Shown one piece after another: positions 43,345-48,290 of a DNA stretch of 64,000 nt. The first letter of the stretch is position 1. Each line of letters starts with the position of its first letter. The notes under the pieces are model-generated. The model worked only from the letters and a program-made list of their open reading frames with translations. It ran no database searches and was not told the DNA's origin. Where the stretch lies: NCBI RefSeq assembly GCF_000973625.1, contig NZ_CP007501.1, forward strand, positions 1,488,001-1,552,000. Direction: 5' to 3'. A program made the translations under genes and the position numbers. This DNA is from Polynucleobacter duraquae. Lineage in GTDB: Bacteria; Pseudomonadota; Gammaproteobacteria; Burkholderiales; Burkholderiaceae.

Positions 43345-43740
43345 TTAATTTCGGCGACTTGGTTCCGAACGATCCGAATGATTGCGCGCACCACTTTGAC
43401 CGCGTGAGCCACGTCTGCCAGTCTTGGAGCCCTCTTTATTGGTACGGCCATGCGGTTCACGAAAAGAACTCGGTGCCTCAATAGTTAAGCCGTTATCCAC
43501 CATCTTTTCCACAGATTTAATACCAATTCCACGAACACGCTTTTGCAGGTCATTGGCATCTTGAAAGTGTCCACCGTCCAAGCGCTCGGAAATAATTGTC
43601 TTCGCTTTAGAGGGGCCAATCCCCTTAATACTCTCGAGCTCAGACTGAGTAGCAGTATTGACATTGATGGGCGAGGCGGCAGCCAAACCTAAGGTAGCTA
43701 TAAATACTGAAAATACTAAAGACTTTAATAATTGATTCAT
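43345..43740 (-). CDS. ComEA-like helix-hairpin-helix protein
   Basis: A 131-residue exported protein: signal peptide to about residue 22, then a ComEA-type helix-hairpin-helix pair (INVNTATQSELESIKGIGPSKAKTIISER and LQKRVRGIGIKSVEKMVDNG). The C-terminal 40 residues are Arg/Gly/Ser-rich and basic. In transformable bacteria ComEA binds incoming DNA in the periplasm; this suggests DNA uptake ability, though no other competence gene is near. Confidence 0.88.
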   Translation of the reverse strand: MNQLLKSLVFSVFIATLGLAAASPINVNTATQSELESIKGIGPSKAKTIISERLDGGHFQDANDLQKRVRGIGIKSVEKMVDNGLTIEAPSSFREPHGRTNKEGSKTGRRGSRGQSGARNHSDRSEPSRRN

Positions 43741-43759: not shown

Positions 43760-43791
43760 AAAAAATCCACTCACACAAAGCGCAAGTGGAT
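43760..43791 (-). terminator. Terminator of the TPR-CHAT cassette
   Basis: On the minus strand ATCCACT pairs with AGTGGAT (43785-43791 with 43765-43771) around a 13-nt loop and is followed by TTTTTTA. It lies 72 bases after the last cassette gene and just before the comEA-like gene. Confidence 0.75.
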
Positions 43792-43863: not shown

Positions 43864-44655
43864 TCAGCCAATAATACCTTTTAAACCGGTGTAAATAGAT
43901 ACCGCAGTAGTTCCAAGTGCCACAATAGTACCGCCGTATTCTTGCAACTTCTTCATGAGGCCATGAAGGCTTGTTGGCGAGATTCGCCCCTCCCCCAAGC
44001 CGGCAACAACCGCCTTAAGAAAGGGGTTGATCGCTGCTTTTCGTAAATGCCTTTGTTTGCTCGCATAGGCTACCCCACCGAGAAGCATCCCAGTTAGGAA
44101 ACTAAAGGCGATACTTGCGGAATATTCCAGAACTTCCCGCCATTCAAATGTATTTTGAGGCCAAATTGGAGAACCATCCACTAAGGAAGTCATCCAGCTC
44201 ATGCCAATAACAGAAGCAATGGCTAAAAAAACGACGCCCATAAACCAAGGAAATAATTTGCGAGTAGTACTTTTAAATAGGAAGTACCCGAAAGGTAAAG
44301 GTAGGATCATAGAGATCAGCCTTAAGTAGAGCGGCTTAGTATCGTAAACAATCGAGATTAAGCCATGCGCAGCTAATAAGAGCGCAAGAGGAATGCCGAT
44401 GTATATAACAATATCCAGCATGGATAAAGCAAGGCCTCTTGGCTCAACCTGCTTTTGAACTTGTTCATCTAACAATAATTGCAATTCTGCAATGCGATGC
44501 TCATAGGCATCTTGATTCGGAATCTCTTCAAGGCGCTTTTCGAGCTCTGCTACCTTGGCCATCATGGGCTTGAATAAATAGAGATCCCGCGTACAAATCT
44601 TGCAGACTGATGCCTCTTCAGAAACTTCAGAGAGGCAGTATGGGCAATTCATCAT
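43864..44655 (-). CDS. Zinc-ribbon multi-spanning membrane protein, unknown function
   Basis: A 263-residue protein. The N-terminus is a zinc ribbon with C4-x2-C7 and C18-x2-C21 (NCPYC...CKIC). A short charged coiled coil follows at about 33-70, then four predicted helices between about 78 and 195 (near 78-98, 107-122, 130-150 and 172-192). The soluble C-terminus ends in a further hydrophobic stretch. I do not recognise the family. It overlaps the Ig-like gene by four bases (ATGA), so it is translated with it as part of the TPR-CHAT cassette. Confidence 0.75.
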   Translation of the reverse strand: MMNCPYCLSEVSEEASVCKICTRDLYLFKPMMAKVAELEKRLEEIPNQDAYEHRIAELQLLLDEQVQKQVEPRGLALSMLDIVIYIGIPLALLLAAHGLISIVYDTKPLYLRLISMILPLPFGYFLFKSTTRKLFPWFMGVVFLAIASVIGMSWMTSLVDGSPIWPQNTFEWREVLEYSASIAFSFLTGMLLGGVAYASKQRHLRKAAINPFLKAVVAGLGEGRISPTSLHGLMKKLQEYGGTIVALGTTAVSIYTGLKGIIG

Positions 44656-45092
44656 TTAACGACTAGAGTGAAAACGGTATTTGTTTCTCGACCATCAGTA
44701 TCTTTTGCCGTTACGCGGATTGTGTGAGAGCCGGAAGGTACATCTGCTTTTGAAAAATCAATACCAGATGCGCTAATAGAATTTTTTAATCTGGGTGTTA
44801 AATCCACAAAGGGGGATTTCATATAAACAACCTTGATTGAAGATGGATCAATCTTTCCTTCTCCGCGAGCTTCAAAGTTAACCTTAAAGTCAAGCGGAGA
44901 GCTGACTGGAGTGTCAGCTTCTGGGGAAACTAGCTTCACCGATGGACCCCGTGAAATCCCACGGGTAGCTAATGCTCCAGATGCCGCTGGCAAAGCAGCT
45001 TCTTTGGCGCTAATTAAAGGTGCCGCACTGACCCATGAAGTTGCGGTCATGAGACTAGTTAAAAATAAGATTTGAGTAAGCTTCATCATCAT
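44652..45092 (-). CDS. Secreted Ig-like domain protein
   Basis: A 146-residue exported protein: signal peptide to about 23 (ISWV-SAA type end), a short linker, then one beta-sandwich domain of about 95 residues. The pattern (PSVKLVSPEADTPVSSPLDFKVNFE ... SGSHTIRVTAKDTDGRETNTVFTLVV) is that of bacterial Ig-like/cadherin-like folds. No catalytic motif is visible; a binding or structural role is likely. Second gene of the cassette, 45 bases after the CHAT gene. Confidence 0.75.
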   Translation of the reverse strand: MMMKLTQILFLTSLMTATSWVSAAPLISAKEAALPAASGALATRGISRGPSVKLVSPEADTPVSSPLDFKVNFEARGEGKIDPSSIKVVYMKSPFVDLTPRLKNSISASGIDFSKADVPSGSHTIRVTAKDTDGRETNTVFTLVVK

Positions 45093-45137
45093 TCCAAAAT
45101 AAGAAAATTAGTTAAAAGTGATTTGATAGATATTAAA

Positions 45138-48100
45138 TCAATCGCCAACCACTACAAAAGGAGCCCAAAACAAGGGGTGCGCATAGGAGTATTTCATCGT
45201 ATTACCTTCTTTCATACCGCCTTGATCTACTTGATTTAGCATGGCCTGACGTAATAACTCAGCCTTGCTGGTACCTTGAGCTTTTTGCTGGCTTTTAAAT
45301 AGATCAGTCATCATGGTTCTAGACGCCGCAGAATCAACCGGCCAGTTAGATACTAAGAGTGCTTTAGCACCAGCAAAAAAGAAGGCTCTACCCAAGCCTG
45401 AGACTGCTTCAGAACCAGCACCCTCTCCAGCAGCAGTGTTACATGCAGATAGCACTACCCAATCAGCATCGAGCTTTAAGGTGAGTACCTTATCCATAGT
45501 CAGAAGTCCGTCATCTTTATCGCCTGTCACATCCGGGGAAGATAGTGCCAATGCGGGCTGAGTAAGGCCATTGAGCTCTCCCGGAACTAAACCATGAGTA
45601 GCAAACATGACTACCTTGCGATCAGAGAGATCAGTAGACATGACTTGCTTCACAGAAGCTTGACGATGCAAGAAGATATCGCCATCTCCAGCACCAATCG
45701 CCTTACCAATCTCTTCAAGCTCAAGACTGGTATCTGGTAAGCGAGGAAGCAAGGCCAGCTCCGCAGAACTTACCCCAGAGGTCTTAGGCGCACTACGCAA
45801 TGACAGTGGAATACCTCTAGTCGCAAGTTGAGTAGCCTTTACTTGTTTTTGCGCAGACTTTTCTTGTTCACTACTAAAGTAAGGATCACCAAAACCAATA
45901 AAGTTTTTGCGATTTGGATTACCGGCTGGTAATGCACGTAAGGCTGTTAAAGCAGTAACAGAGGGGACCTGCGCAACGGCAATGTCCCGTGTTAGCCAAG
46001 GAACAGTTTTATATCCACTAAATGGTGTGGCACCACCTTTGGCAGGTTGAGATGTTGGCTTGGTAACTAATAAGGATAAGGGTAGTTGGCCAAGCTCTGC
46101 ATGCGGTACGGTCAACATCACCTTTTTACCAATAAATGCACTCTGCACTGGGGCAAGAACTTGTTGATAAAGTTGATTTGCTAACGCCACATCGAACGGC
46201 GGAATCTCGTCGATCGTAGCAACGCCTGGATCTAAAGACTTACGTAGTTGCGCTACCTCTTTTGCAATTTGGGCACGACCAACAGCAAGCTGAAAAAACT
46301 GTACAGGTTTATCTTTGCTAATTGCCCAAACATAACCCACGCTATCTGTGAAATACCATGAGACCAAAACTTCATCAGGCTTTAACGCTTTTTGAGTTCG
46401 TTCTACAGAGGCCGGTTTTGGCTCAACAAGTTCAGCATAGTCCGGAAACTTTTTCTCAATCTCTTTTTTCAGATCCTCACGCTGGGATTTAAAGGTAGCG
46501 ATGTCAGTACGAATCTTGGCTTGAGCAGCAGGGAGTTGTTGCGCAGTCGGGGCAGATAATAATCCAGTCAAAAGTTCCGTCAAAGTATTGATACGTTGTT
46601 GCAAATCTTGTTCACGGCGCGCTAAAGATGCTAATTGCGGATCGGAAATAGTCGCACGAGCTGCACTTGAAGTAAGGGCACGCTGTACACCGCTCCCACG
46701 AGCAAGATCGGCAATTTGGAAGGCTTCAGCCGCCGCCGCTCCAGATGAATCTGTTTTTGCTTGCTGGGCTAAAGAGGCCAAATACTCCTCTAAAACAAAG
46801 ATCATTCTTTGGGTTTGCCGTATTGTTGCGGTGGAGTTTTCCGAATCATTTCGCGCCTGATCAACCAGAATCGGAATAGATTGCTTGAACTCAGATAGTG
46901 CTTGAGAACCTTGTCCTGACACTTGAAGCGCAGATGCATTAAATGCTCTGATTGCGGCAAGACGTGGGGAGCTCTTTTCCATTCGAGCGCCCGCCCTAGA
47001 AAGCATATCTGTAGTCATGGCCACAGCCTGGGATGCTTTACCTGTTTTAACTAAAGCAATAGCCCAATCGAGATCGCCAGATTGATAACTGGAGGCAAGC
47101 TCAGGATCGCTCTTAATACCATCCAACATTTCATTGAATATTTTATCTGCCTGTACATATTTACCATCCGCAGCCAATGATGTACCTAAGGCTTTTCTTG
47201 CTGCCGCAATTAATGGAGATGCAGAATAATTTGTTGATTGCATTGCAACCTTGAGAGCTGCCTGAGATAACATTACTGCCTCAGCCTGACGCCCTTGCTC
47301 GCTAATAATTTTTGACAAGGTTAATAATGCAAAACAAGTGCTAGCAGAATTCACCCCCTCGCGATTAATCGCCAGTACAACCGACTCTCTCGCCCAATAT
47401 TCAGCATCAATTAAACGTCGCTGACCTAGAAAAGCATTTGCTAGTTGGTTATATAAACCAACTCTTTGCCCATAGGCATATCTGGGCGTACTTGAAATAT
47501 CCTGCAATACTCTGACCTCATTATCCAAGGCATCTTTATTACTATCTTTGACGTTGTCAAGAATAGTTTTATTTAAGCTCAGAGCAGTTCTAAAGCTCCT
47601 CTCGGCTTCAATAAATTTACCTTCCGACATAAATACTCTGCCACGAGCCCGCTCATAACCCAATTGCCAGTTAGTTTTATATATAAAGTTTGGATTTCTA
47701 GCTACGCTAATTAGATTAGAGTAGTCATTTTCAAGGGTGGCCAAGGCTTTATTGGCACATTCAAAATCTCCCATTCGCAAACATATATTGACAATATTTT
47801 GCCCAGTACTAATCTTCCAACCGCCAAGATTATTAGGAATCATTGCTTTTGTTTCTTCAGCTATTTTTTTAGCAAGAATTAGGTGGCCCCTTAGTGCCTC
47901 CTGCTGGGCATACTGCATTCTTTCATCTAACTGCATTGCAATATCGAAGCTGGGATGGTCAATTGCAGCTTTTTTAAAATTCTCTAAAGCTTCTTTGGAG
48001 TTTTCCAGCGTATTTTCAGCAACAGCGCGCTGATAGTAGTAATTATTTAGGTCGCGAGGGTCATTTGTCGATGGCAGAGGTTTAGTAAGTACTTTTTTTG

Positions 48101-48290
48101 CCTTTTCTATTAGGGCCTGATCCTGTCGAGTCTGACTCAATATCTGCAAAATATCCTTCACATCTCTAGGTGGAGCCTTCACATTCTCAATATCTACTTC
48201 ATCTTTATTGGGGACAGCAAATGAAAAATTAGACAGCACTGTTATGCTGCAGCATAACAATAGTGATTGAATTAGCGAGTGCTTACGCAT
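45138..48290 (-). CDS. Secreted TPR-CHAT domain protein
   Basis: A 1050-residue exported protein. The N-terminus (SLIQSLLLCCSITVLSNFSFA) is a Sec signal peptide. Residues about 60-540 are a helical repeat array of TPR type, 550-615 look like a coiled coil, and about 640-1050 form a CHAT domain, a caspase-fold peptidase. The catalytic pair is intact: H899 in MFATHGLVPGEL and C950 in WVVLSACNTAAGEG. Many CHAT proteins are cytoplasmic; this one should be periplasmic or surface-exposed. Substrate unknown. First gene of a three-gene operon. Confidence 0.9.
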   Translation of the reverse strand: MRKHSLIQSLLLCCSITVLSNFSFAVPNKDEVDIENVKAPPRDVKDILQILSQTRQDQALIEKAKKVLTKPLPSTNDPRDLNNYYYQRAVAENTLENSKEALENFKKAAIDHPSFDIAMQLDERMQYAQQEALRGHLILAKKIAEETKAMIPNNLGGWKISTGQNIVNICLRMGDFECANKALATLENDYSNLISVARNPNFIYKTNWQLGYERARGRVFMSEGKFIEAERSFRTALSLNKTILDNVKDSNKDALDNEVRVLQDISSTPRYAYGQRVGLYNQLANAFLGQRRLIDAEYWARESVVLAINREGVNSASTCFALLTLSKIISEQGRQAEAVMLSQAALKVAMQSTNYSASPLIAAARKALGTSLAADGKYVQADKIFNEMLDGIKSDPELASSYQSGDLDWAIALVKTGKASQAVAMTTDMLSRAGARMEKSSPRLAAIRAFNASALQVSGQGSQALSEFKQSIPILVDQARNDSENSTATIRQTQRMIFVLEEYLASLAQQAKTDSSGAAAAEAFQIADLARGSGVQRALTSSAARATISDPQLASLARREQDLQQRINTLTELLTGLLSAPTAQQLPAAQAKIRTDIATFKSQREDLKKEIEKKFPDYAELVEPKPASVERTQKALKPDEVLVSWYFTDSVGYVWAISKDKPVQFFQLAVGRAQIAKEVAQLRKSLDPGVATIDEIPPFDVALANQLYQQVLAPVQSAFIGKKVMLTVPHAELGQLPLSLLVTKPTSQPAKGGATPFSGYKTVPWLTRDIAVAQVPSVTALTALRALPAGNPNRKNFIGFGDPYFSSEQEKSAQKQVKATQLATRGIPLSLRSAPKTSGVSSAELALLPRLPDTSLELEEIGKAIGAGDGDIFLHRQASVKQVMSTDLSDRKVVMFATHGLVPGELNGLTQPALALSSPDVTGDKDDGLLTMDKVLTLKLDADWVVLSACNTAAGEGAGSEAVSGLGRAFFFAGAKALLVSNWPVDSAASRTMMTDLFKSQQKAQGTSKAELLRQAMLNQVDQGGMKEGNTMKYSYAHPLFWAPFVVVGD

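Follow-up and report, generated by a model that had tools for sequence, protein, structure and literature searches.

We analysed a 64,000-nucleotide stretch of the Polynucleobacter duraquae genome (NZ_CP007501.1, positions 1,488,001 to 1,552,000; hereafter the window, in whose numbering coordinates are given), in which three adjacent genes encode an exported TPR-CHAT protein, an immunoglobulin (Ig)-like protein and a zinc-ribbon (ZnR) membrane protein. All three lie on the minus strand, as a single operon with a terminator. The first gene (45138..48290) encodes a predicted exported caspase-fold protease of 1050 residues, recognized by its open reading frame (ORF), a match to PF12770, the residues H899 and C950 and an AlphaFold 2 (AF2) model. 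After a gap of 45 bp comes the gene for the 146-residue secreted Ig-like protein (44652..45092; ORF, 993 homologues and alignments), which overlaps by 4 bp the gene for the 263-residue ZnR protein (43864..44655; ORF, aligned relatives, a crude segment scan and an AF2 model). Downstream, 3' of ZnR, a hairpin followed by a T-run has the form of an intrinsic terminator on the same strand (43760..43791; folding energy −16.5 to −18.4 kcal/mol). An earlier note on this DNA had given the coordinates of the three ORFs, the gap, the overlap and the terminator, and every one checked agrees. The host genome is a single contig of 2.03 Mb, in which family searches found neither a second CHAT protein nor a Peptidase_C14 protein.

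The catalytic CHAT domain covers residues 702-1050 (45141..46187, minus strand) and matches PF12770 with an E-value of 1.4e-47 (163 bits, against a curated cut-off of 24); two TPR families also score above their cut-offs in this protein. The earlier note had claimed an intact catalytic pair, and H899 and C950 are indeed present by position and invariant among 26 aligned CHAT proteins. The window CHAT is a member of the PF12770 family with a His-Cys pair, and protease activity is predicted from its sequence. Signal peptides were judged by inspection and by a crude n/h/AxA scan with a threshold of 1.8. A signal-peptide-like N-terminus was found in 47 of 50 CHAT proteins, and that of the window passed with a score of 2.42; it spans approximately residues 1-25 (48216..48290, minus strand), with a hydrophobic run at 5-24, an SFA cleavage site seen by inspection and a predicted local distance difference test (pLDDT) of 19-41. 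Between signal peptide and CHAT domain, AF2 places a helical TPR region at approximately residues 45-511 (46758..48158, minus strand), which has low identity among relatives and is the putative input region. The CHAT model (pLDDT 82.6) aligns to separase (5fc2_B; root-mean-square deviation 3.2 over 307 residues), and also to Craspase TPR-CHAT chains and to DdvA (PDB 8rot, titled 'transmembrane anti-sigma factor').

Among the Ig proteins, 58 of 61 passed the same signal-peptide scan, and that of the window scored 1.77, just below the threshold. Matches to PKD, He_PIG and Big_7 were all below cut-off. The PDB profile match was the KIAA0319-like protein (E 0.004), which we take to be PKD-type; calling the protein 'Ig-like' is plausible, but the support is weak. 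At two loci, L194 (8094-8540) and L220, the usual Ig gene is joined by a second, diverged paralogue; it lacks the TRG tag described below, which its neighbour carries. In the model of the ZnR protein (pLDDT 83), an N-terminal zinc ribbon is followed by coiled-coil-like helices, then by four long helices of membrane type and a hydrophobic helix at the C-terminus. The four cysteines of the protein are invariant in 25 aligned sequences, and the charges of its loops suggest an N-in topology. The possible cytoplasmic zinc sensor of the earlier note was examined as far as these cysteines and this predicted topology. No Pfam family scored above cut-off for ZnR and no close sequence relative was found in the PDB; its fold matches are close to noise and its model is helical, which would be unlike a gasdermin. 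One ZnR relative, P0116, is automatically named 'positive regulator of sigma E activity' in one source, a name that would fit a signalling role. In a tree of ZnR proteins the nearest neighbours of the window protein come from Polynucleobacter species.

Recurrence of the trio had been set beforehand as the test of whether it is a cassette, and the cassette recurs. CHAT relatives occur in 55 of 186 genomes of the genus and ZnR relatives in 56; 47 genomes have both, 8 only CHAT, 9 only ZnR and 122 neither (Fisher p 1.7e-26, phylogeny not removed). The nine ZnR-only genomes comprise six with a C14 protease beside the Ig-ZnR pair, one in which CHAT was lost at the same site and two limited by contig ends. 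Scanning GTDB species with a ZnR profile gave 67 loci, six of which contain only the zinc ribbon (L195-L200) and were dropped everywhere. In the resulting 61, which also include loci from Curvibacter and Hylemonella, Ig adjoins ZnR 60 times (the contig of the remaining locus begins at ZnR), and a caspase-fold gene is found in 55 of the fetched stretches. For 42 loci the flanks reach at least 4.5 kb on each side; a protease lies within 1.5 kb in 38 of them and at 1565 bp in two more, that is 40 of 42 near such a gene; in 37 it lies less than 200 bp away on the same strand. The loci come mostly from Polynucleobacter and thus are not independent. Sampling across the order gave 14 matching genomes out of 399, two by the zinc ribbon only. 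Without the window's own genome this gave 11 loci, of which L215 is the same stretch as L179. Ten have a caspase-fold gene on the same fragment, counting L218, where just the N-terminal part of a CHAT-like gene is present at the contig edge; the eleventh, L223, lies on a contig that begins 0.9 kb from ZnR, and the C14 protease of that genome is on another contig (L229). A 2.5-Mb Variovorax replicon carries CHAT in head-to-head orientation to Ig and ZnR, with 31% identity in ZnR. A class-wide sample of 258 genomes yielded no full-length ZnR relative besides that of the window's own genome.

These data bear on whether the three genes are merely chance neighbours at one conserved site. The site between hldD and a small helix-hairpin-helix (HHH) gene is common to many Polynucleobacter loci, as such an explanation would have it. 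Among 30 hldD loci, the best matches of 80 genomes, part of the trio is present in 10, and 17 of the 20 others have a plain gap of 28-97 bp. The module also occurs, however, at other sites, in other orders and orientations, in other genera and with about seven protease switches, and we regard a chance neighbourhood as refuted by recurrence, its probability being negligible. The HHH protein itself, which we take to be ComEA-like, is encoded at 43345-43740, just past the terminator, and is kept at the site with or without the trio.

The earlier note had pictured a cassette of an exported CHAT protein with two partners. The cassette stands, with the difference that the constant unit is Ig with ZnR, while sequence comparison indicates that the protease slot is exchangeable and holds either CHAT or Peptidase_C14. 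Five CHAT-less loci (L094, L095, L096, L097 and L124) have a Pfam-recognized Peptidase_C14 gene adjoining Ig and ZnR; next to the pair, L099 has a gene similar to that of L095 and L100 one similar to that of L096, and the corresponding genes in L158 and L182 match a C14 profile built here. At the N-terminus, the C14 proteins inspected by eye show a signal peptide, a twin-arginine-like leader or a membrane helix. We counted eight changes between CHAT and C14 on a quick tree of 70 ZnR proteins, over the 63 rows with a known protease (those of L218 and L220 labelled by hand), and seven over 61 rows, when the two doubtful labels L141 and L218 were dropped; the number is approximate because of long branches and several weak forks.

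A short sequence tag links the protease with its Ig partner. The longest string common to the window CHAT and Ig proteins is LATRGI. In Ig it belongs to TRGISRGP (44943..44966, minus strand), in the linker between the signal peptide and the Ig-like domain, and TRGI.RGP is present in 88 of 96 distinct Ig proteins. In CHAT, LATRG (residues 822-826) lies in a conserved loop, 817-837 (45780..45842, minus strand), which is predicted to be disordered; outside the N-terminus, pLDDT falls below 50 only here and at 953-960. Conservation without predicted structure is what a cut or docking site would be expected to show. We found [TS]RG in this loop in 39 of 53 CHAT proteins of a first set, which includes a truncated copy of the window gene (L001), and in 21 of 23 of a second set (exceptions L194 and L146); the two sets overlap by four sequences. 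No Ig or ZnR was seen in the fetched stretches of the 14 first-set proteins without the tag. Nor do L104, L106 and L131, which carry it, stand beside the pair, and the L055 contig ends too early for its neighbourhood to be judged. Ig and ZnR are a conserved pair beside an exported caspase-fold protease, and the TRG tag is common to the protease loop and the Ig linker. The earlier note had contained neither this shared tag nor the variable TPR half nor the swapping of proteases.

Several further CHAT proteins lie outside the trio. Extra paralogues without adjoining Ig or ZnR occur at L104, L106 and L131, where the loop tag is present all the same, and at G103 (C1); the G103 assembly breaks within two CHAT copies, perhaps at a shared repeat. 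A different CHAT cluster with a tagless loop is found in metagenome-assembled genomes of the Polynucleobacter group (L122, L123 and L125-L129). The L122 member adjoins a PATR-repeat passenger protein, a ShlB/FhaC transporter and a CHASE2-cyclase, a two-partner-secretion setting. At L116:6680-10644 the gene after a CHAT gene with a tagless loop encodes an OmpA-like protein whose linker contains TTRG and VRGF, which places the OmpA tag next to a further CHAT subfamily as well.

Similar tags occur in extended operons, which carry a C14-DUF4384-type protease with two TR[small] sites past the catalytic Cys and an OmpA-like protein with one such tag between signal peptide and domain. DUF4384 was recognized by Pfam in L105 only and the other proteins of this type by similarity to that of L105; the OmpA-like label comes from patterns, not from a family search. 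The OmpA-like tags have G after the arginine in KTRGFRNL (L105), ATRGLRNL (L222, L224), VTRGLRNL (L264) and TTRGLRNL (L257), and S in RTRSLRNL (L194), KTRSLG (L220/L267) and KTRSLRNL (L258); L263 has RTRN, L265 KTRN and L266 RTRS. No C14 gene was recognized by pattern beside L265 and L266, where the neighbours of the tagged OmpA-like genes resemble, by eye, forkhead-associated, phosphatase, kinase and type VI secretion genes. The residue after the arginine agrees between OmpA and C14 site 1 in six of eight loci (G in L105, L222, L224 and L264; S in L194 and L220), and between Ig and C14 site 1 in six of seven (G in L105, L221, L222, L224 and L225; S in L194), L220 having A versus S. The clearest case is L194, where all are non-G: RTRSI in Ig, RTRSL in OmpA, STRSI at C14 site 1 and AVRSL in CHAT. 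The idea of a concerted G-to-S change per operon is weakened with agreement in six of eight OmpA-C14 comparisons (Fisher test of G versus non-G approximately 0.07, calculated by hand), and the agreement among operon proteins is suggestive only.

Such tags could have other roles than as the substrate of the neighbouring enzyme. They might be where an unrelated housekeeping protease matures exported proteins, and the neighbours would then be co-located for regulation only. The tagged neighbours examined do appear to be exported; in both Ig and OmpA the tag follows the signal peptide and precedes the folded domain, and in genome G180 the Ig tag persists after decay of CHAT. Among window ORFs of at least 80 residues (greedy pick), however, only CHAT and Ig carry [ST]RG[ILVMF]; the tag also lies inside the proteases, and the 14 first-set CHAT proteins that lack it in the loop were not seen beside Ig and ZnR. 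We consider this explanation quite improbable. Alternatively, the tag could be a docking or inhibitory peptide, with the Ig linker and the CHAT loop competing for one groove (the active site or ZnR) and Ig restraining the protease, much as securin restrains separase. The TR[small] strings in OmpA-like linkers, and twice in C14-DUF4384 proteins past the catalytic Cys, suit processing sites better, and the residue after the arginine is small wherever tags were read (G, S, A, N), as P1' might be. Docking appears rather unlikely to us.

The N-terminal half of CHAT varies far more than its catalytic half. Of the 20 relatives shown, 15 have an identity to the window protein of only 28-53% over residues 121-300, against 68-95% over residues 801-1050. 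Across the 703 pairs formed by 38 CHAT proteins carrying the loop tag, median identity is 41% for residues 30-480 and 81% for residues 600-1050, and at 60% the TPR halves of these 38 form 11 clusters. Window DNA can be aligned with that of the sister genome G165 on either flank (84% and 91%), but alignment fails between about 46494 and 48451, which corresponds to the first ~599 codons of CHAT and the region just upstream, while ZnR and Ig are 96% identical; this pattern fits replacement of the sensor half by recombination. The sensor half varies, then, and was swapped as a block at least once. In G166 two CHAT genes stand in tandem. One reading of this variation is a polymorphic extracytoplasmic receptor for immunity or self-recognition, in which TPR cassettes are exchanged, the same caspase output would cut a tagged Ig latch and switch a ZnR effector, and TR[small] would be a general periplasmic caspase code. 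We think this doubtful, though a real possibility. If it were true, the code would be common to the exported substrates Ig and OmpA-like protein and to the proteases themselves, and envelope caspase cascades with gasdermin-like logic and unrelated effectors would follow.

A protease beside a constant membrane partner, with an exchangeable protease type, recalls the operons of bacterial gasdermins, with ZnR as the presumed effector. In the portion of the source consulted, those operons are described with a constant partner beside a C14 or CHAT protease, some with lysozyme, amidase or phospholipase genes (PMC9612521). The logic is known from them; the compartment and the partners are not. Here, unlike there, the protease and one partner are exported, the ZnR and Ig-like partners have no Pfam family above cut-off, and a short tag is common to enzyme and partner. 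No gasdermin was recognized at this locus, although no search with a gasdermin model was made. The likeness would agree with a self-limited death or lysis module with a periplasmic trigger, in which Ig cleavage unlocks ZnR and its C-terminal hydrophobic helix breaks the inner membrane. For this explanation speak the constant membrane partner with a swappable C14 or CHAT protease, as in the portion cited above (PMC9612521), the variable sensor half and a patchy presence with clean empty sites. A further point in its favour is an alpha/beta-hydrolase-like gene that follows ZnR in 11 loci (three of these clustered hydrolases were checked by Pfam and were near or under cut-off), with a different hydrolase family in three. 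We judge a lysis module unlikely on balance.

The best reading, to which we give a little less than an even chance, is a caspase-type module with a signalling or effector role outside the cytoplasm. In the periplasm, its variable TPR domain would bind an envelope or foreign ligand and activate the CHAT domain. The active enzyme, with specificity for arginine at P1, would cut between R and G in its own disordered loop (LATRG) and in the Ig linker (TRGI.RGP). Cleavage would free or reshape the Ig domain, which could then bind ZnR at two conserved loops on the periplasmic side (near D105 and D160-P166) and switch it, and ZnR might relay across the inner membrane via its cytoplasmic zinc ribbon and coiled coil, or itself alter that membrane. 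An alpha/beta hydrolase would join the module in some species. We infer the cleavage, the Ig-ZnR contact and the outcome. The partial text of PMC6426788 reports that orthocaspases cleave after positively charged residues, which we count in favour of arginine at P1.

Several observations weigh against this module. The switching of ZnR by Ig and the relay by ZnR are purely inferential steps. For the window pair alone the shared string is a modest sign, as 24 of 2000 shuffles gave a common 6-mer or longer; its interest comes from the conservation of the tag. The second Ig arginine is more constant than the first (RGP in 94 of 96 proteins), which the cut-site model does not explain. The loop of two linked CHAT proteins, L146 and L219, is without [TS]RG, that of L305 shows just KRG, and the DACRD-type C14 proteins (L094-L097, L124) have, by eye, no TRG in the loop after the Cys, just RGL- or KGL-like strings. 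The post-arginine residue differs between OmpA and C14 site 1 in L257 (G versus S) and L258 (S versus A) and between OmpA TRN and the sole C14 site, TRS, in L263; in L194 the second C14 site retains G. Two genomes with broken CHAT genes differ: the Ig motif has lost its P in G181 (L056), which speaks for the module, but in G180 it is intact, which counts against it. Two full-flank loci have no protease: L154, with CHAT lost at the same site, and L192 (Sulfuritalea). Finally, in the portions of the papers available, the proteases of bacterial gasdermin operons may rely on exosites (PMC9612521), and the Csx30 site that Craspase orthologues cut is not conserved (PMC11106740).

The earlier note had found no match to a described system. 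No description of this cassette turned up in the literature searched, mostly without subscription papers and without preprints, but an extracytoplasmic TPR-CHAT protein is probably not wholly unprecedented, given that DdvA aligns along the CHAT model. Unlike DdvA, a one-protein anti-sigma factor by its title, the window encodes a soluble exported protease with two partner genes. The TPR-CHAT protein of type III-E Craspase is cytoplasmic and has no signal peptide; the window CHAT differs from Craspase (Csx29 TPR-CHAT with Csx30) in its signal-peptide-like N-terminus, as judged by the crude scan. No CRISPR genes, gRAMP/Cas7-11 included, were recognized by eye among the ORFs at 36-54 kb, where no search with Cas models was made. 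Compared with separase, the module is bacterial, exported and has other partners. PADLOC defence models gave only BovA (E 0.009) and LmuB (E 0.0016), both partial. DAC motifs, as in orthocaspases and metacaspases, occur in the C14 proteins that take the place of CHAT. As far as the consulted part of PMC3501461 goes, an extracellular location and cell-surface operons were noted earlier for orthocaspases; the Ig-ZnR pair and the shared tag set the present module apart from those described there.

Few substrates of bacterial caspase relatives have been defined, and this module offers a candidate enzyme, cut site and substrate in one operon, together with two partner families for which no Pfam model scores above cut-off. 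Its hosts are freshwater Burkholderiales, which are culturable and have small genomes. That CHAT and C14 enzymes trade places before the same partners raises the question of what their shared output is. If the predicted cut between TR and G is true, it would provide a sequence rule for finding more exported caspase substrates.
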